In this document: one piece after another, positions 4,505-12,972 of the stretch | How the letters are laid out: every line of letters begins with the position of its first letter | Numbering within the stretch: the stretch's first letter is position 1 | Origin: Ruminococcus sp. | GTDB taxonomy: Bacteria; Bacillota; Clostridia; Oscillospirales; Ruminococcaceae | Assembly (NCBI GenBank): GCA_017543335.1 | Contig: JAFYGE010000049.1 | Span: forward strand, 1-64,000 | DNA: 64,000 bases | Direction: 5' to 3' | Made by a program: the position numbers and the translations under genes | The notes under the pieces: generated by a model | Database searches by the model: none | The model's input: only the letters and a program-made list of their open reading frames with translations | Told to the model about the DNA's origin: nothing

Positions 4505-5524
4505 ATGAGTAATATTAAAATAATAGGCGATTCGCTTCCAAATATACCGTGGCAGGATAAGCCAGAAAACTGCTGCACTCCTGTTTGGAGATACAGCGAG
4601 AATCCTATTATCGACCGCAATCCGCTTCCAAATGTTGCAAGGATATTCAATAGTGCAGTTCTTCCTTATGGCGACGGTTTTATCGGAGTTTTCAGAGGCG
4701 AACAGCGTGACGGCATCCCTCATATTTATCTTGGCAGAAGCAATGATGCAGTTCACTGGGAGTTCGAGTCTGAGCGTATTCAGTTTACAGATAAAAACGG
4801 CGAGTTGTTTATGCCAAAATACGCATATGATCCGAGATTAATTAAAGTTGAGGATACTTATTATATAATGTGGTGTCAGGACGGCTACGGAGCAACTATA
4901 GGAATTGCTCAAACTAAGGATTTCAAAACCTTCGTGAGACTTGAAAATCCGTTTTTGCCATATAACAGAAATGCAGTGCTCTTTCCGAGAAAGATAAACG
5001 GCAATTATGTTATGCTGTCAAGACCTTGCGACAACGGACATACTGCTTTTGGAGATATTTTTCTTTCAGAAAGTCCGGATATGGAATTCTGGGGACGTCA
5101 TCGTCACGTTATGGGACGCAGTGAGAACTGGTGGGAGAATCTGAAAATAGGCGGCGGAGCTGCTCCGATCGAAACCGATAAAGGCTGGCTGCTCTTTTAT
5201 CACGGAGTTGTAAACACCTGCAATGGCTATGTGTACAGTATCGGAGCTGCGATACTCGATATCAACGAGCCGTCCAGAGTACTTCATCGTTGTAAGAATT
5301 ATATACTTGCTCCGGAAGAGTGGTACGAGGAGCGTGGATTTGTGCCGAATGTGTGCTTCCCGTGTGCGACTCTGACCGATGCCGATACAGGCAGGATAGC
5401 TATTTACTATGGCTGTGCCGACAGCTATGTTGGCGTAGCTTTTACCACTGTTCAGGATATCTGGGACTACATAATTAAGTTTGATTCAGTTAATGAATCA
5501 GATACTGAGATAGGAATAAGATAA
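4505..5524 (+). CDS. GH130 beta-1,4-mannooligosaccharide/mannosylglucose phosphorylase
   Basis: GH130 enzymes split beta-mannosides with phosphate, releasing alpha-mannose-1-phosphate, in the cytoplasm. This 339-residue protein has the five-bladed propeller motifs: NPII near 33, AVLPYGDGFIGVFRGE (51-66), YDPRL (108-112, whose Asp109 is the probable acid catalyst by family analogy) and a C-terminal FPCA...YYGCADSYVG stretch. The short length fits the R. albus RaMP2-like mannooligosaccharide phosphorylases better than the longer mannosylglucose type; that choice is inference. It is monocistronic and divergent from galK. Confidence 0.85.
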   Translation: MSNIKIIGDSLPNIPWQDKPENCCTPVWRYSENPIIDRNPLPNVARIFNSAVLPYGDGFIGVFRGEQRDGIPHIYLGRSNDAVHWEFESERIQFTDKNGELFMPKYAYDPRLIKVEDTYYIMWCQDGYGATIGIAQTKDFKTFVRLENPFLPYNRNAVLFPRKINGNYVMLSRPCDNGHTAFGDIFLSESPDMEFWGRHRHVMGRSENWWENLKIGGGAAPIETDKGWLLFYHGVVNTCNGYVYSIGAAILDINEPSRVLHRCKNYILAPEEWYEERGFVPNVCFPCATLTDADTGRIAIYYGCADSYVGVAFTTVQDIWDYIIKFDSVNESDTEIGIR

Positions 5525-5525
5525 A

Positions 5526-5566
5526 AATATCCCCTCATCATTGATAATCTGTGATGAGGGGATATT
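5526..5566. terminator. terminator between convergent genes
   Basis: A 15-bp stem (5526-5540 with 5552-5566) with an 11-base loop. On the minus strand it is followed by ATTTTTAT-like sequence, so it best serves the minus-strand gene ending at 5581. On the plus strand the T tract is weak. Confidence 0.75.
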
Positions 5567-5580
5567 CAAATTTGGAGTGA

Positions 5581-6303
5581 TTAGGATAATTGTCCGGCTT
5601 TAGTTTTTATTTTGATCTTTTTGCTATTATCACGATCATCTTTTTTACGTGCAAGAAGCTTATCCACACCAACAAATATTGCTCCTACCGCCATAAACGC
5701 AACAAGGAGTATCAATATCCAGCGTATAACTCCGCCAACGCCTTCTTTTATCGGATTAAGGAAGAAATACGGATAAATAAGCGGGTCATCGCCATTATGA
5801 TCGAGAATAGAAGTATTGAATCTAAGGCAAGCTGCATGGAGATAAACATATGCGACGTAAAGAAGAGGAAAAACTGCTGAAATAAATACATATTTGATAT
5901 TGGTCTTACCTCTTTCGTAGAATAAGAACCAGTCTGCTATATACATTACAGGCAGTACCACATGGAACATATAGTTGCCAACACGGTAATTCAGTGCAGT
6001 GTCTCTGCCGGGTTCATGTGCCAGCATGAGATTGAACACAAGAAATGTCAGTAATATGCCAAGCATTCCGATGAATTTAAGTTTTGGACAAGCTGAAACA
6101 AAGCTGTCATCTTTTTTGCGTGCAGTTTGCACAAGACCTGCGAGCATCACTCCGAAACACAGGAAATTACTGATATTCGTGAAGTAAATATAGAAGTCCC
6201 AGAAGAATTGATAATTGAAAAAGCCAATGCATCCGAAAGTACCAACAAGTGCAAATGCACAGTAAATCGACTCATAAATAAGTTGTGCAGTTCTGTTTTT
6301 CAT
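5581..6303 (-). CDS. Pr6Pr-like (FAR-17a/AIG1-like) membrane protein
   Basis: A 240-residue protein with about six hydrophobic segments. An FTNISN motif follows the second segment (about 41-46), an HVVLPVMYIADW region sits in the middle (about 114-125) and YPYFFLN in a later loop. These features fit the Pr6Pr family of uncharacterised membrane proteins. The C-terminal tail is highly charged (Lys/Asp). The ribosome site is AAAGAGG. It starts 55 bases after nudC and is probably cotranscribed with it. Function unknown. Confidence 0.65.
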   Translation of the reverse strand: MKNRTAQLIYESIYCAFALVGTFGCIGFFNYQFFWDFYIYFTNISNFLCFGVMLAGLVQTARKKDDSFVSACPKLKFIGMLGILLTFLVFNLMLAHEPGRDTALNYRVGNYMFHVVLPVMYIADWFLFYERGKTNIKYVFISAVFPLLYVAYVYLHAACLRFNTSILDHNGDDPLIYPYFFLNPIKEGVGGVIRWILILLVAFMAVGAIFVGVDKLLARKKDDRDNSKKIKIKTKAGQLS

Positions 6304-6358
6304 GATATAACCTCTTTGGTTTTAATAATATTTGATTGCTAATGGAACGTCAGTACTT

Positions 6359-7189
6359 CTAAATCATTCCGTCCATAAACATTTTCATCATCTCGTTAGT
6401 AAGACTGAGATCAGACGGCTGAAGTACAACATCCTCTCTTTTGACCCATTCAGCATATTTAAGCTCGGCGCTGTCCATATGTATTGTATCATCACCGTCC
6501 ACATCGCAATAGAAGCCAACAAGCAGGTCCGAAGCCATACCCCACGGCTGAGATTTATAATAACGGATATTTTTCACTTTAACGCCTGTTTCTTCCATTA
6601 CTTCACGCATAACAGTCTGTTCAAGAGTTTCACCTATTTCAGTAAAACCGGCTACAAGAGCGTTATGTGCATAACCTGAACGATACTTTGTTATAAGTAT
6701 CTTGTCGTCATTTATTACACCTACTATAACCGCAGGATTTATCCTCGGATAGATCACATTACCGCATTTAGTACATCTCATTGCTCGCTCTTTAGTATCG
6801 TGTACAGTTCCGGAGCCGCATACTCCGCAAAAACGGCTTGAAGAGTACCATTTCCAAAGGTGAAACGAGGTGTAAGCAGCAAGTATTTCAATATTAGAGT
6901 GCACCCTAAGAGCTCTGAGTTCACGCATAGAGTAGGCTTCAAAACCTGATAGTTCTGTTTCATCACAGTTCAGATTGAGAAAGAAGCTGTTGTTATCGAT
7001 TGAAAACAAATAAACATATTCAGTTTGTTTAGTCATGTCACTAAAAGTCGGAAAAATGATTTTTTCATTTTTAACGTCATAATGTGCGTAGATTCTGTCA
7101 TTGCAGAAAGATATCATAAAACTATCTTGTGCAGGTGACTTATTTGAAAACGCATTATATAGCTTGCTTGGAAAAATATCTTGGATCAT
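6359..7189 (-). CDS. nudC: NAD(+) diphosphatase (Nudix)
   Basis: Hydrolyses NADH/NAD to NMNH/NMN plus AMP; related enzymes remove NAD caps from RNA. The start chosen is the ATG at 7189 (protein MIQDIF..., 276 residues), because GGGAG lies 8 bases before it; an upstream in-frame start gives 290 residues but lacks such a site. The protein has a zinc ribbon (CGVCGSG...CTKCG), then a Nudix box GFTEIGETLEQ...REVMEETG, then SQPWGMASDLLVGF, close to the NudC-specific SQPWPFPxS. A consensus promoter lies at 7267-7295. Confidence 0.9.
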   Translation of the reverse strand: MIQDIFPSKLYNAFSNKSPAQDSFMISFCNDRIYAHYDVKNEKIIFPTFSDMTKQTEYVYLFSIDNNSFFLNLNCDETELSGFEAYSMRELRALRVHSNIEILAAYTSFHLWKWYSSSRFCGVCGSGTVHDTKERAMRCTKCGNVIYPRINPAVIVGVINDDKILITKYRSGYAHNALVAGFTEIGETLEQTVMREVMEETGVKVKNIRYYKSQPWGMASDLLVGFYCDVDGDDTIHMDSAELKYAEWVKREDVVLQPSDLSLTNEMMKMFMDGMI

Positions 7190-7266
7190 AATTAACTCCC
7201 GAAAAATATTTCTTAGAACACATCGGCACATATCCGTAATTGGAACAATAGTGCAGTGCAGGTTTA

Positions 7267-7295
7267 ATTATATCATGTATATAATATAATGTCAA
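7267..7295 (-). promoter_or_regulatory. sigma-A promoter of nudC
   Basis: On the minus strand: TTGACA (7295-7290), 17 bases, TATAAT (7272-7267), with TG one base before the -10. Confidence 0.75.
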
Positions 7296-7299
7296 ATAA

Positions 7300-7330
7300 A
7301 AAGGACCGATGGTGCTAACATCAGTCCTTT
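7300..7330 (-). terminator. terminator of the secreted Pro/Glu-rich protein gene
   Basis: The stem AAAGGAC-x-GATG pairs with CATC-x-GTCCTTT with one mismatch. On the minus strand it is followed by TTTATTTGAC. It separates the gene ending at 7388 from the nudC promoter. Confidence 0.75.
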
Positions 7331-7387
7331 ATGTATATAAACTATAGTCCTTTATTTTTATGAGAGAATTATAAAGAGAGGGTTAAA

Positions 7388-8185
7388 TTAGTTTTCTTCA
7401 ACAGCTTCTTCGGAGGTTTCTGTTGCTTCTTCAGTCTGAGTGTTTTCGATGTCCTTGTGTGGACCGTGGTGAGGAGCTTTGTGCTCGTGTGGCTTTATCT
7501 CTGGCTTTGCAGGAGCAGCTGGTGCTTCAGGAGCCTTTGGTGCCTCTGGAGCTGGAGCGTTTTCGTCTTTTACTGGAGGAGCTGGTGGCTCTGGCTTTTC
7601 AGCATTCTCGTCAATAACCGGAGCTTCTGGCTTTACAGGAGGCTCAACTTCAGGCTTTGCAGGAGCTTCAGCATCCTCAGGCTTTACGAGCTCAGCAGGC
7701 TTCTTATCGTCAAATTTGATTCCGTTTGCACAGAAATCGAACCATTCTTTTTTAGCATCATCATCTTTGAAGTCGGAATTATCGAAATCAAATGATTTAA
7801 CGATCATATCCTTGATCTCTTTTACACCGATATGCTTAGCCGGCTTAGCGATCTCCTCAGCAGGAGCTTCTGCCTCATCTTCGTCCTTTACCTCAGGAGC
7901 CGGAGCTTCTTCGGAATCTTCGTCCTTAACTTCTGGTGCAGGGAGCTCTTCCTCTGTCGGAGCCGGAAGGTCTGGCTTTTCAGTTTCAGCAGCAGTTGTT
8001 TCCTCAACTATCTCAGCAGCCTCGGTAGATTCTTCAACAACAGTTTCTTCTACAGCTGTTGTTTTCTCAGCCTGCTTCTTTTCGTTTTTAGCAGCCTGAT
8101 TGCTTGCAAATGCACTAACACTTGTAGCGACTGAAAGTACGGATGCAGCAGCGATCGCAGAGATCAAAGTTTTTTTGTTTTTCAT
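7388..8185 (-). CDS. secreted Pro/Glu/Ala-rich protein, probable SigI target
   Basis: 265 residues with an N-terminal signal peptide (basic start, hydrophobic 7-22, cleavage near 25-28). The mature chain is mostly low-complexity Ala/Pro/Glu with acidic repeats; PAPEVKDED occurs at about 82-90 and again at 95-103. One more ordered island sits at about 118-160 (HIGVKEIKDMIVKSF...WFDFCANGIKF), and a His/Pro-rich stretch and an acidic tail close it. I recognise no family and no anchor motif. The composition resembles the extracellular tail of the RsgI-like protein next door. The ribosome site is AAAGGAG. The promoter matches the one upstream of sigI, so the gene is probably SigI-controlled (inference). 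Confidence 0.8.
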   Translation of the reverse strand: MKNKKTLISAIAAASVLSVATSVSAFASNQAAKNEKKQAEKTTAVEETVVEESTEAAEIVEETTAAETEKPDLPAPTEEELPAPEVKDEDSEEAPAPEVKDEDEAEAPAEEIAKPAKHIGVKEIKDMIVKSFDFDNSDFKDDDAKKEWFDFCANGIKFDDKKPAELVKPEDAEAPAKPEVEPPVKPEAPVIDENAEKPEPPAPPVKDENAPAPEAPKAPEAPAAPAKPEIKPHEHKAPHHGPHKDIENTQTEEATETSEEAVEEN

Positions 8186-8212
8186 GATTAAAGACTCCTT
8201 TTTAATTATATT

Positions 8213-8226
8213 CTCCGTTGCCGGAG
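8213..8226 (-). other. short leader hairpin with GCAA loop
   Basis: On the minus strand, CTCCG-GCAA-CGGAG: a 5-bp stem closed by a GNRA-type tetraloop, about 25 bases before the ribosome site of the secreted protein. It could stabilise the mRNA 5' end (inference). On the plus strand the same hairpin is followed by TTTTTT, but no plus-strand gene precedes it. Confidence 0.4.
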
Positions 8227-8251
8227 TTTTTTCACGCTTTCTGCGTTCTGT

Positions 8252-8288
8252 TTATAGATTACGGCAGCAGATATAAAAAAGTGGGGTA
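8252..8288 (-). promoter_or_regulatory. SigI-type promoter of the secreted protein gene
   Basis: On the minus strand: an AAAATTTTTT block, TACCCC (8288-8283), 18 bases, CCGTAATCTATAA (8264-8252). The same elements in the same order, with a 19-base spacer, lie upstream of sigI (10234-10271). No sigma-A -35 box is seen. A CCCC-type -35 and a CGWA-type -10 are what is reported for SigI factors. Confidence 0.65.
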
Positions 8289-8312
8289 GTACAAAAAATT
8301 TTTTGAAAAAAA

Positions 8313-8341
8313 GCAAAGTCCGCATTTTTTGCGGACTCTGC
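8313..8341 (-). terminator. terminator of sigI-rsgI operon
   Basis: Stem AGTCCGC/GCGGACT (8317-8323 with 8331-8337), extended by GCA/TGC. On the minus strand it is followed by TTTTTTT. Confidence 0.85.
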
Positions 8342-8361
8342 TCTTGAAGGTGATATAAAAA

Positions 8362-9489
8362 TTATTGTAAGATATCTGTATTATCATCTATTACAGTCAG
8401 TTCTTCATCAGGTGAGGGGAGTTCATGAATCTCCGGAGCCGGAGCTTCGGCATCAGGATGTACCGGAGATTCAAACAACTCCTCATGTGGTGGGTGATGA
8501 ACTGGCAGAGGAATTTCTGGTTCTACAGTTTTTTCTTTATTTGGAACATGGCGTTCCGGTTTTATGGTATCATCAGGTCTTACCGGTAAATCAGCATCTT
8601 TTTCTTTTGGTGTATCATCGACTGTTTCTTCATGCTGATTCTTCTTTTCGTGCGGAGGTATTTCCGGTTTCTCTGCTTCACGAGGAATACTGATACTATT
8701 ATGTTCAGTTTTTATGTTAGCTTTTGGCGGAACAGCTTCTTCATGTTGCACAGGCGGCTGCTCCGGAGTAATTTTAGTTACGATAGGGGCTTTATCTTCA
8801 TGTACCTCAGCCTTAGGCGGCTGTATCTGCGGAGCAGTATCCGGAGTATGCTCGTGAACATCAGGTGCTTTAGCCGGTTCTGTAACGAAAGGTGTAGGAA
8901 TTGTAGTAGAAGCAAAAGTCTCACTTACTTTACTGCTGAATTCATTCATATCACGAACATTGAGCTTGTAATCGGAGAAATCATTTTCAAAGTCAGATCT
9001 ATTATTTGAGTAACCTTCTGATGAGATAAAGATATCTACCGGTTCATTTTCAGATATATAGCCTTTTGAGACTCCTATTTCTATCAGTTCATGAGCCGCA
9101 GTCAATTTATCCTTGCCTTTGGCTTTATAGTCTTTTATAATCTCATTTCCCTTGGTGCTGTCGCTTTTCAGATAAAGCACCTTACCTTTTTTATTAAGGT
9201 ACATTTTTATCTCAGCATCGGATGATATCAAGACGGTAGAGTAAACTTTGTAGTTCTGAACATAGTGATAATATCCTGCACCTGCAGCGATAGCCAAACA
9301 AGCTGCTGCGGAAGCAACAGTCATAACTATCCGGCGTTTGCTTTTAGCATTTTCTGTATTTTGCATCAATACCGGGTCAGTAACAGTCTGACCGACTGTA
9401 TAATGCAGATTAGCGGCATTGACGAATCTTGAATCTTCGTCCATAAGCACTGCATATCCCTTATGACATTCCATTACCATATATTTCAT
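8362..9489 (-). CDS. rsgI: RsgI-like membrane anti-sigma factor
   Basis: A predicted SigI inhibitor and surface sensor. The 375-residue protein has a cytoplasmic N-terminal domain (about 1-50; KGYAVLMDEDSRFV, the RsgI_N look), one membrane helix (about 53-75), an extracellular alpha/beta domain (about 80-165; DAEIKMYLNKKGKVLYL...LTAAHELIEIGVSKGYI, the RsgI middle domain) and a long disordered Pro/Glu/His tail to the end. No carbohydrate-binding module is visible. I find no Asn-Pro at the place where RsgI proteins are reported to cut themselves; the equivalent stretch reads SSDAEIK. The ATG shares one base with the sigI stop (TAATG), so translation is coupled. Confidence 0.78.
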   Translation of the reverse strand: MKYMVMECHKGYAVLMDEDSRFVNAANLHYTVGQTVTDPVLMQNTENAKSKRRIVMTVASAAACLAIAAGAGYYHYVQNYKVYSTVLISSDAEIKMYLNKKGKVLYLKSDSTKGNEIIKDYKAKGKDKLTAAHELIEIGVSKGYISENEPVDIFISSEGYSNNRSDFENDFSDYKLNVRDMNEFSSKVSETFASTTIPTPFVTEPAKAPDVHEHTPDTAPQIQPPKAEVHEDKAPIVTKITPEQPPVQHEEAVPPKANIKTEHNSISIPREAEKPEIPPHEKKNQHEETVDDTPKEKDADLPVRPDDTIKPERHVPNKEKTVEPEIPLPVHHPPHEELFESPVHPDAEAPAPEIHELPSPDEELTVIDDNTDILQ

Positions 9490-10214
9490 TATCTTTCACC
9501 GCCTTTCAGTACCTGCATGATATGTCCACGCATGATCTCGTATCCGTTTGTACAGATAAGAAGAACAGCCACAAGATAGCGTCGATGTCTTTCAAGGGAT
9601 TTCCTTTCGACCTCAGCACCCTCAGCGAGTCTGGCGATAGGAACTTTCTTAGTCCTCAAAAAATCGTTAAGTATCTCAGGATTATTTCTTGCATATCTGA
9701 CAGCCTTCTGGCAAATTTCAAGAGTTCTGTGCTGTTTGGGGGAGTTTTCAGCAACATCGCTCATTGAAACGCCAAAATCATTCATCTGAGCAGAAAGCTC
9801 TTCGATCTCATTACGGGTAGCTTCACGAAGTTCATGTTCCTCATAATCATCGTGTTCATCGCTGATAGTATCGATAAGTTCGTTTTTATCGTCGTCATCA
9901 GCTGATGAATCAAGTGAAATAAGACCTGAATTTCTTTTTTCTTTCCGGAAATTATCAATAAGTCTGCTTCTGATCTGCAGGGAGGCAAATTTTAAAAAAG
10001 CACCTTTCAGTCTTGAATAGTTCCGGATAGCTTCATAAAAGGCGAACATGGCTATACTTAGCTCATCGTCGCTGTTATCAGGCGAGCGTTTAAGGAATTT
10101 TGCAGTCTCTGACTTTATAAAAGGCATATATGTCTCAATAAGTTCATCAGCAGCCTGACTGTCCTTTTTAGCTCTGTATACTTTAGAAACGAGTTCTTTT
10201 GCACTTACATCCAC
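9489..10214 (-). CDS. sigI: RNA polymerase sigma factor SigI-like
   Basis: 241 residues. The region-2 core reads LSIAMFAFYEAIRNYSRLKG then FLKFASLQIRSRLIDNFRKE (about 55-95), the SigI pattern, and the C-terminal half has a region-4-like helix-turn-helix (LRTKKVPIARLAEGAEVERKSLERHR). SigI factors control cellulosome and wall genes in Clostridia. It starts at GTG behind GGGGGTGG. It is the first gene of a two-gene operon with rsgI. Its promoter carries the motif shared with the secreted protein gene, so autoregulation is likely. Confidence 0.82.
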   Translation of the reverse strand: MDVSAKELVSKVYRAKKDSQAADELIETYMPFIKSETAKFLKRSPDNSDDELSIAMFAFYEAIRNYSRLKGAFLKFASLQIRSRLIDNFRKEKRNSGLISLDSSADDDDKNELIDTISDEHDDYEEHELREATRNEIEELSAQMNDFGVSMSDVAENSPKQHRTLEICQKAVRYARNNPEILNDFLRTKKVPIARLAEGAEVERKSLERHRRYLVAVLLICTNGYEIMRGHIMQVLKGGER

Positions 10215-10232
10215 TTGACCACCCCCAGATCA

Positions 10233-10271
10233 ATTATAGAATACGGATGACACCCCCTCAAAAACGGGGTA
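10233..10271 (-). promoter_or_regulatory. sigI promoter: SigI-type motif overlapping a sigma-A-like one
   Basis: On the minus strand: AAAATTTTTT, TACCCC (10271-10266), 19 bases, CCGTATTCTATAA (10246-10234). The same DNA also reads TTGAGG (10261-10256), 17 bases, TATAAT (10238-10233), so basal sigma-A and autoregulated SigI transcription could share it. ACCCC and GGGGT form a small dyad here. Confidence 0.65.
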
Positions 10272-10361
10272 TCAGAAAAAATTTTCTATATAAATAATAG
10301 CAGAAACAGAAAAATATTTCAAGTACCGGAGATGATCGGAATAAAACAAGGTGTCTGCTAC

Positions 10362-10390
10362 TTGAAATTGCAAATGATACGTGATATAAT
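10362..10390 (+). promoter_or_regulatory. sigma-A promoter of lipid kinase gene
   Basis: TTGAAA (10362-10367), 17 bases, TATAAT (10385-10390) with TG one base before it. It is divergent from sigI. Confidence 0.75.
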
Positions 10391-10456
10391 AAATACAGCA
10401 CCGTACTAAATTGTGCGATGCATTGACTGAAAAAAGTGAAATGGGGTGTGCTGCTC

Positions 10457-11499: not shown

Positions 11500-12972
11500 T
11501 TATTCGCTCTGAAGCGTCATAACAGTACCAATAAAGACCGGAATAGAGGTTTCGGTATCTATGATGCAGTACATAAACGGACGATCAAATTTTATCTCCT
11601 TTGACGGCGGTAAAGCTTTAACATCACAGGTCACAGATGTAGCAGCTGCTGCTCTTGTACCTTTTTCATCGACCTCAATGTGAGTTTTCTGTAAAACATC
11701 ACTTATATAAATGTCATCTCCGCCGTTTGAAACCATTTTAGAGAAATCTGAAAGTGTGTCGTCAAAAGCAGCATTCATACCCATGTCTTTAAGAAGATCG
11801 TTCATATGTATTTCAAAGTCATATTTAAACTTTGGAAGAGTTATGTGTACTCCGCCCTCTGTTTCAGGATTTGAAAGCGTCTTGTTCAGTGACTCGGCTG
11901 TAAGACCTGAGATATAGTCATTCAAATCTACTCCTTCATCCGGAAGCAGAGCTGCAAACGCATATTTTCTGCCTTCATACATCTTCATGAATCCCTGAGC
12001 TTTTCCGTCTGTGATGTAGTATGATTCATCTGATGTCATCATCTTAGCTTTTTCATTTTCTCCATTAGCATTTACAAAAGTACCGTCCCATGCAGGATCG
12101 AAAGGAGATATCCAGTCTGCATCAAAAGTAACTGCGTTCACGAGACACATTACAGTAGATTCAGATAATTCATCTATGAGCTTAGGTATCATCTTGTCTG
12201 TATTCTTGTTTACCCAGCTATTTATATCGTCTACTGTGGACTTATCCATATTTGCTTCATAGAAATCAGCACCGTAGTAATTTACATTATTCTTTAGGAA
12301 TTCCGGAGCAACAGGTAGTCCTTTCTTTGACCAGATAGCGTTTGCAGTTTTGAGTTTGCAAGAGTATGTGCTGCCGTCCGGCTGATTGATACGCTGAGTA
12401 TAGAGATATTTGTTGAGCTTATCAATGCTCATGCCTCCGCCAAGAACCTTTTCCATTTCAGCTCTCGTTTCAGTACCGGTACCGTTTGCGGTCATAGCAA
12501 GAGCCTGTATTGCTGAATATGGTGATACCATAGTGTTTGAGGATGCGGTTATTGATCTCTGCAAGAAACCAAGTGCAAATTCTGTCTGAGACTTAATGAA
12601 TTCATCGTCAGCTTCAAGACCTTCAACGTCGTCAGGAGTATAGGTGCTGCATAGATTTCTTGATTTGAATATCGGACTTGGAATCACCATTCTTTTGATG
12701 AGGTCTTTCTGCATGAGGCAAAGGTCGAAAGAATCGATGCAATCGTCACGGTCAAAGTCAGCGTTATAGTAGTTTGCAAGAGTGCCTCTTCTTAATAAGT
12801 ATCTGTGCATGAGCACAAGGTCTGAAAGATTGAATCTGCCATCGTTATTTACATCACCGAGTATGTCGGTTGGTTCGATCGGAGTGTCAACTGCTGATGC
12901 AATGTAACCTGCCGCTGAGCTGCACATAAGCGATAATGCTGAAAGAGATGCTATCATTTTTTTGGATTTCAT
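11500..12972 (-). CDS. secreted dockerin-serpin (cellulosomal-type protease inhibitor)
   Basis: 490 residues: signal peptide (1 to about 27), type I dockerin (about 38-94) with two calcium loops (DVNNDGRFNLSD 40-51 and DFDRDDCIDSFD 72-83), then a full serpin domain (about 128-488). The hinge of the reactive loop, EKGTRAAAAT (436-445), has the small-residue pattern of inhibitory serpins. Alignment to the KALPP/MSIPP region puts P1 at Lys452 and P1' at Ala453, which suggests a trypsin-like target (inference). The dockerin should dock it on a cohesin scaffold, where it may protect surface enzymes from proteases. The ribosome site is GGGAGGT, preceded by a small GGAGTT/AACTCC hairpin. Confidence 0.9.
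   Translation of the reverse strand: MKSKKMIASLSALSLMCSSAAGYIASAVDTPIEPTDILGDVNNDGRFNLSDLVLMHRYLLRRGTLANYYNADFDRDDCIDSFDLCLMQKDLIKRMVIPSPIFKSRNLCSTYTPDDVEGLEADDEFIKSQTEFALGFLQRSITASSNTMVSPYSAIQALAMTANGTGTETRAEMEKVLGGGMSIDKLNKYLYTQRINQPDGSTYSCKLKTANAIWSKKGLPVAPEFLKNNVNYYGADFYEANMDKSTVDDINSWVNKNTDKMIPKLIDELSESTVMCLVNAVTFDADWISPFDPAWDGTFVNANGENEKAKMMTSDESYYITDGKAQGFMKMYEGRKYAFAALLPDEGVDLNDYISGLTAESLNKTLSNPETEGGVHITLPKFKYDFEIHMNDLLKDMGMNAAFDDTLSDFSKMVSNGGDDIYISDVLQKTHIEVDEKGTRAAAATSVTCDVKALPPSKEIKFDRPFMYCIIDTETSIPVFIGTVMTLQSE

Follow-up and report, generated by a model that had tools for sequence, protein, structure and literature searches.

Two SigI-type promoters were found on the minus strand of the Ruminococcus sp. 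window (the whole stretch of 64,000 nt that was analysed), one in front of the sigI-rsgI pair and the other in front of a gene for a secreted Pro/Glu-rich protein, termed here the partner. With good confidence, this arrangement can be regarded as the regulatory part of a SigI-RsgI envelope-signalling module that reads its own promoter and the promoter of the partner. SigI systems act in wall stress in Bacillus and in cellulosome control in Clostridium thermocellum. A dedicated sugar-sensing RsgI suite is stated to be limited to Acetivibrio-type cellulosome bacteria (PMC11557425), which makes the role of SigI in Ruminococcus a question.

The promoter pair and its genes in the source genome

Read on the minus strand, the promoter of the secreted gene has the form AAAATTTTTT-GTAC-TACCCC-N18-CCGTAATCTATAA and the promoter of sigI the form AAAATTTTTT-CTGA-TACCCC-N19-CCGTATTCTATAA, with spacings of CCCC-N19-CGTA and CCCC-N20-CGTA, respectively (Table 1); the TACCCC-N18/19-CCGTAWTCTAT core lies at 8254-8288 (-) and 10236-10271 (-). 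A shared SigI-type promoter upstream of both transcription units had been proposed in the first-pass annotation of this DNA, and both elements were recovered as described there. The same annotation held that no other intergenic region read in the window carries this set, which agreed with the counts: both the full promoter pattern and its A/T tract plus TACCCC part were observed twice against 0.00 expected. A weight matrix derived from the sigI promoters of relatives (73 distinct sequences, with the partner and window sites excluded) scored the two window sites at 40.0 and 27.7 and produced nothing else in the window at a score of 8 or higher, and a simulated control (10 x 64 kb, both strands) yielded one match, at a score of 10-11.

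In a genome-wide search, suggested beforehand by the annotation, the pattern TACCCCN{16,21}CGTAWTCTAT retrieved just the two window sites from the source assembly (2,445,437 bases, 95 contigs, 86% complete), with no match of the reversed control pattern and no random scatter inside genes. A fixed-spacing search of the assembly with three mismatches allowed returned the two window sites and one poor extra. A looser pattern added one site, on contig C41, which lay in or near unrelated genes and was discarded, as no fitting gene was present. Since the assembly is incomplete, further SigI targets beyond those found are possible, and the strict patterns could overlook weak targets.

Table 1. Features of the sigI-rsgI region and of the adjacent secreted gene (positions in the window)
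Feature	Positions	Strand	Details
Terminator-like hairpin downstream of the secreted gene	7300..7330	-	consensus scan
Secreted Pro/Glu-rich partner, 265 aa	7388..8185	-	signal peptide, acidic linker, conserved segment, Pro/Glu repeats
5' leader of the partner mRNA, two small hairpins	8186..8255	-	folding of 49 leaders
SigI-type promoter of the secreted gene	8252..8302	-	A/T tract 8293-8302, TACCCC 8283-8288, CGTA 8260-8263
Terminator-like hairpin in the gap between rsgI and the secreted gene	8309..8345	-	-24.9 kcal/mol, z -7.1, T-rich 3' side
rsgI, membrane anti-sigma factor, 375 aa	8362..9489	-	RsgI_M PF23750 5.2e-09; RsgI_N PF12791 0.001
sigI, SigI-type sigma factor, 241 aa, GTG start	9489..10214	-	NF006178 1.5e-54, TIGR02895 1.8e-48
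SigI-type promoter of sigI-rsgI	10234..10285	-	A/T tract 10276-10285, TACCCC 10266-10271, CGTA 10242-10245

The SigI protein matched both family models nearly over the full length, yet with scores below the curated cut-offs; it contained sigma region 2 and the SigI C-terminal domain, hit SigI6 (3.4e-20) and SigI1 (1.4e-19) among the PDB entries, and was the one strong SigI match in the whole assembly. The gene lies directly upstream of rsgI, the end of the former and the start of the latter both falling at 9489. RsgI was recognised by a weak RsgI_N (residues 4-37, below the cut-off and at the expected N-terminus), a membrane helix judged by eye (hydrophobic segment at about 53-78) and RsgI_M (87-170, above the cut-off, lacking an Asn-Pro pair), followed by a Pro/Glu/His-rich tail, while a Pfam scan of this protein found no carbohydrate-binding module. 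The strong terminator-like hairpin after rsgI, absent from the list of the consensus terminator scan, makes it probable that the secreted gene depends on a promoter of its own. At 11500-12972 (-) the window also encodes a dockerin-bearing serpin, which probably acts as a protease inhibitor associated with the cellulosome.

Conservation of the promoters and their probable dependence on SigI

The comparison covered the best 80 of 117 relatives, mostly Ruminococcus flavefaciens and its uncultured relatives. In 78 of the 80 loci a SigI-type promoter preceded sigI (slightly relaxed match rule), and in the two misses, L052 and L113, the sequence ended less than 35 bases from the gene. Among these 78 promoters and that of the window CCCC was exact in 72/79, CGTA in 73/79 and CT two bases further on in 77/79, and the distance from CCCC to CGTA was 19 bases in 70/78 and 20 bases in 8/78. 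A second site with a matrix score of at least 20 was found in 61/80 loci, either downstream of rsgI (52) or divergent from sigI (9); since the relatives are not independent, all these locus counts overstate the number of events. The second site led to a signal-peptide-like protein in 57/61 cases by an automatic rule and in one more, L043, by eye; the sites with no called partner were masked (L072) or cut at the contig end (L077, L108). An A run followed by T preceded the element in 57/62 partner promoters and in 30/79 sigI promoters.

The 19 loci with no second site were of several kinds. Four of them (L039, L049, L092, L093) ended less than 200 bases from rsgI; in L041, L079 and L091 the partner, together with its kept promoter, was located on another contig of the same genome (G032, G067 and G062, respectively), and in L080, a 3 kb contig, the partner was found elsewhere in genome G061, also on another contig. 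In L114 the partner was a lipoprotein, preceded by a site with a matrix score of 17.3, and in ten loci, some of them short contigs, the second site was missing for no apparent reason.

In 60 genomes of the genus the strict pattern gave 64 sites in 34 genomes, i.e. about two per carrier genome, compared to 6 sites in the reversed controls. Within a set of 36 genus genomes, the site was present in 18/20 with a strong SigI versus 2/16 without one; of these two exceptions, one (G005) represented a partner promoter close to where its contig ends and the other (G021) had no matrix support. Because both promoters are conserved, the partner promoter stays with its gene on other contigs, the sites co-occur with SigI and the geometry fits, they point to SigI autoregulation and to the partner as a member of the regulon, and, judged from these sequence comparisons, both promoters very probably depend on SigI. 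Both claims had been made in the first-pass annotation and are supported by these results.

At the secreted gene the proposed distance from sigma-A sequence held, no sigma-A-like promoter being listed there in a consensus scan of 7200-10450; a qualification applies to sigI, whose SigI-type promoter is overlapped by a sigma-A-like TTGAGG-17-TATAAT (10 of 12 letters). Single sites of this kind mean little here, since the scanned region contained 10 of them versus 6.4 (sd 2.5) in shuffles. At 10233-10322 (-) sigma-A-like sites overlap and precede the sigI promoter (TTGAGG-17-TATAAT and TTGAAA-17-TATTAT), which perhaps provide basal expression. A reading of the shared elements as sigma-A promoters or as a repressor site, with no involvement of SigI, is very unlikely: the overlapping site, the resemblance of CTATAA to a sigma-A -10 element and an exact TATAAT in 11/79 sigI promoters would agree with this, but CCCC and CGTA are the best-conserved letters, the partner promoters are exact for each of them in 61/62 and for TATAAT in 0/62, and the sites are rare, accompany SigI and fit it in geometry. 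An origin of the likeness in a recent local duplication of little regulatory meaning, already disfavoured, is more improbable still: the two promoters are less than 2 kb apart in the source genome, but their likeness was held over 61 loci with different flanks and in both orientations, and persisted where the partner sits on another contig.

The SigI regulon of Ruminococcus probably consists essentially of these two promoters, as suggested by a search of 12 genomes (93-99% complete) with up to three mismatches, in which no third conserved target was visible. It gave 42 sites, 22 of which were assigned to sigI or the partner, while the other 20 were fewer than the 26 reversed controls. The proposed "at least one neighbour" is thereby sharpened, the partner being the sole conserved target visible besides sigI-rsgI. 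Strong extra sites in single genomes were rejected as shared targets, having no common gene, and a site common to G019 and G074 was rejected as it falls within a coding frame. The gene names at the single-genome sites were assigned by eye: the site in L147 is upstream of a presumably CotH-like secreted gene, the site in L151 between a dockerin gene and what we take to be a VTC-like gene, the site in L149 upstream of a gene presumably for a prolyl-tRNA synthetase, and the strong site in L146 (G035) has no close sense gene and reads against the end of a gene taken as uvrC-like. The L147 and L151 sites are possible extra SigI targets in single species.

RsgI, promoter recognition and comparison with known SigI systems

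The Asn-Pro pair of RsgI_M, which we take to be the self-cleavage site, occupied its column in one of 76 aligned RsgI proteins (75 loci plus the window), that of L114, and was likewise missing from five further RsgI read separately; a profile comparison paired SSDAEI of the window protein with SVNPEI of lipoproteins from sister lineages. In other lineages the pair was found in 19 of 20 loci, in the gene taken as rsgI, with the remaining L241 probably read in a wrong frame. In these alignments the loss of Asn-Pro spans the examined Ruminococcus loci, and it is not unprecedented. RsgI is described in the literature as having a self-cleavage domain or motif; according to PMC12203970, C. thermocellum RsgI8, one of nine paralogues, lacks the motif, and a blocked site in B. 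subtilis RsgI reportedly leaves signalling not fully stopped. Because RsgI8 also has no such motif, the absence of Asn-Pro was treated as a variant of RsgI and not as an exclusion. The Ruminococcus RsgI resembles RsgI8 (PMC12203970) in having neither the self-cleavage motif nor a distinct carbohydrate-binding domain, and differs from it in that the loss spans the loci examined, each with one SigI-linked RsgI.

A CCCC-type -35 with a CGWA -10 had been considered in line with SigI factors, and the geometry indeed fits the promoters given in PMC4711584, where in the SigI3 consensus CCC is followed after two bases by a tract and then by 13-14 bases and CGWA, the Bacillales SigI consensus is ACCCCC--AA-15N-CGAA, and the tracts consist of A. 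The window promoters follow this layout as CCCC-NN-TTTT, 13-14 bases and CGTA, with the tract after CCCCNN being T and not A. Gln161 of the window SigI falls at the position of the SigI6 minor-groove His (H171; PMC10575876), and Gln was found in most relatives as well. The window SigI thus has no minor-groove His, a residue which was not treated as defining because many other SigI matches also have non-His residues. The Gln loci had a T tract in 68 cases, an A tract in 4 and another in 4 (the rule found no site in 17), while the non-Gln loci had an A tract in 8, a T tract in 3 and another in 2 (27 with no site by rule), in a tally that counts three loci twice (L230-L232 = L241-L243) and ignores kinship.

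In common with C. thermocellum, the system is an autoregulated sigma/anti-sigma pair with the same promoter layout (PMC4711584 and PMC10575876), and the window SigI matches the SigI6 and SigI1 of that organism. In contrast to it, there is one strong SigI match instead of several, RsgI has no detected carbohydrate-binding module, the tract after CCCCNN is of T and not of A, Gln occupies the minor-groove His position in most relatives, and the conserved target observed is not a cellulosome gene. The single RsgI with a disordered outer tail is shared with B. subtilis, whose SigI has its role in wall stress and autolysins (PMC12203970, PMC13059805 and PMC7478892); unlike in that system as described there, the conserved target here is a disordered exported protein and Asn-Pro is missing.

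The partner, its sister-lineage counterparts and a possible feedback

The partner is rich in Glu, Pro, Ala, Lys and Asp and had no Pfam or NCBIfam match. Its conserved segment comprises 45 residues (114-158) and was present in 35/58 partners, the remaining 23 having a different segment or none. In comparison with the nearest relative, L036, dN/dS was 0.17 for the partner gene, 0.18 for rsgI and 0.05 for sigI, values which place the partner gene under purifying selection. The L043 partner (R. flavefaciens FD-1, about 5830-6800) carries long EAEKAEREAKH repeats together with a few Pro/Glu repeats. Leaders of 40-90 bases (the window plus 48 loci) folded with a mean z of -3.05, 45/49 being below -1 and 39/49 forming two hairpins, and the partner leader gave no match near the gathering score in Rfam. 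ACTCC in the leader and GGAGT at the ribosome site, able to pair, were seen in 11/49.

Several sister lineages in which RsgI retains Asn-Pro encode downstream of rsgI a lipoprotein with a SigI-type promoter and an acidic repeat tail. RsgI_M was detected in 6/6 of those scanned (best 8.2e-18) and PepSY in 5/6, and a profile comparison (hhalign 5.8e-11) shows homology between the RsgI_M of the lipoproteins and RsgI. A lipoprotein search across 295 genomes from the order produced 67 with a match, many to PepSY alone; six of the seven other genomes of the order with a SigI match in a class-wide search were among the 67, and the seventh, G361, was not listed and perhaps not sampled. Twenty lipoprotein loci (L253-L272) were taken, L273-L282 being left out, and two with no recognisable gene were dropped. 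A strict SigI-type site was located within 250 bases of the gene in 17 of the resulting 18 loci, picked as relatives of the SigI-linked gene and partly overlapping the earlier locus sets, and two or more such sites in 6/18; the reversed, opposite-strand and shuffled controls each gave 0/18, and the lone miss, L254, had a near match. An rsgI-like gene was recognised by rule just upstream in 10/18, while in G325 the lipoprotein and sigI were on separate contigs. Two to four tandem SigI-type promoters preceded the RsgI_M lipoprotein gene in L236, L263-L267 and L271; the four of L236 are spaced in steps of 105-115 bases (5269-5640, reversed strand). In L242, L243 and L248 a secreted Glu/Lys-rich protein with Cu_amine_oxidN1 lies upstream of sigI and has an A-tract SigI-like site. 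Since the target lipoprotein bears RsgI_M behind a SigI-type promoter, the product of SigI in the sister lineages seems to be an exported protein that mimics the make-up of the sensor.

The window partner had neither a Cys after the signal peptide nor the RsgI_M plus lipobox of the sister lipoproteins; the homology of the Ruminococcus partner was none beyond the signal peptide to these lipoproteins and none beyond the signal or membrane segment to RsgI. The tail composition of RsgI and partner correlated within a lineage (mean r 0.80 for 58 Ruminococcus pairs and 0.68 for 7 sister pairs) and not across lineages (0.04 and 0.20). This likeness belongs more to the lineage than to the locus, because matched Ruminococcus pairs barely exceeded mismatched ones (0.795 vs 0.767); six-residue words were shared by 27/58 matched Ruminococcus pairs vs 30% of the mismatched, and by 4/7 vs 45% in the sister lineages. 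The change of tail type, Pro/Glu versus Asp/Asn/Tyr, amounts to a single event or a few.

A sequence of steps may connect these elements. The membrane-bound RsgI would hold SigI until some extracellular signal frees it, and the freed SigI would then make more SigI, RsgI and partner, with the SigI-read partner mRNA beginning just after CCGTAATCTA. The likeness of the partner to the outer RsgI region lies in a common Pro/Glu/Ala/Lys-rich chemistry in Ruminococcus, and in several sister lineages in a true RsgI_M domain carried, with an acidic repeat tail, by a lipoprotein; by occupying the wall space or ligand sensed by the RsgI tail, the partner would reset the switch. For RsgI of B. subtilis, the disordered tail is proposed to reach into the wall and to detect gaps (PMC13059805); if the tail probes the wall here as well, an exported partner of like chemistry could fill or mask the sensed feature. 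That the partner closes a negative feedback loop as a sensor look-alike or wall filler is a tentative proposal from sequence, somewhat short of an even chance. The fuller version, in which the main SigI product is an exported look-alike of the outer half of the sensor, in several sister lineages as a lipoprotein copy of the RsgI cleavage domain with a similar acidic tail, and in which the Ruminococcus sensor lost its self-cleavage site while the partner turned into a free chain rich in Pro and Glu, is a speculative one at the lower end of that range.

Disordered Pro/Glu tails are common among exported proteins. Considering this, the partner, although controlled by SigI, may simply be a plain surface or wall protein (a spacer, adhesin or charge layer), whose tail likeness to RsgI is a convergence on disordered acidic sequence; this comes close to an even chance and is at least as likely as a feedback role. 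It agrees with the Ruminococcus partner showing no homology to RsgI, with the matched tails being barely closer and with the shared words being frequent in mismatched pairs, but accounts less well for the partners of several sister lineages that carry RsgI's own domain, and for the tail repeats that some of them have in common with the RsgI of their locus, such as DTDYGP and DGVTDY in L235. Neither this partner nor the lipoprotein circuit was found described in the openly licensed literature.

With the promoter pair, SigI in Ruminococcus gains a clear, narrow and testable target. The absence of the cleavage pair throughout the Ruminococcus loci raises the question of how RsgI signals with no Asn-Pro, and the lipoprotein copies of the sensor domain, as a parallel case, lead to a specific, testable feedback idea. 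If the partner does act as a mimic of the sensor, the cell would gauge against its own sensor tail whether its wall contains enough of this material.
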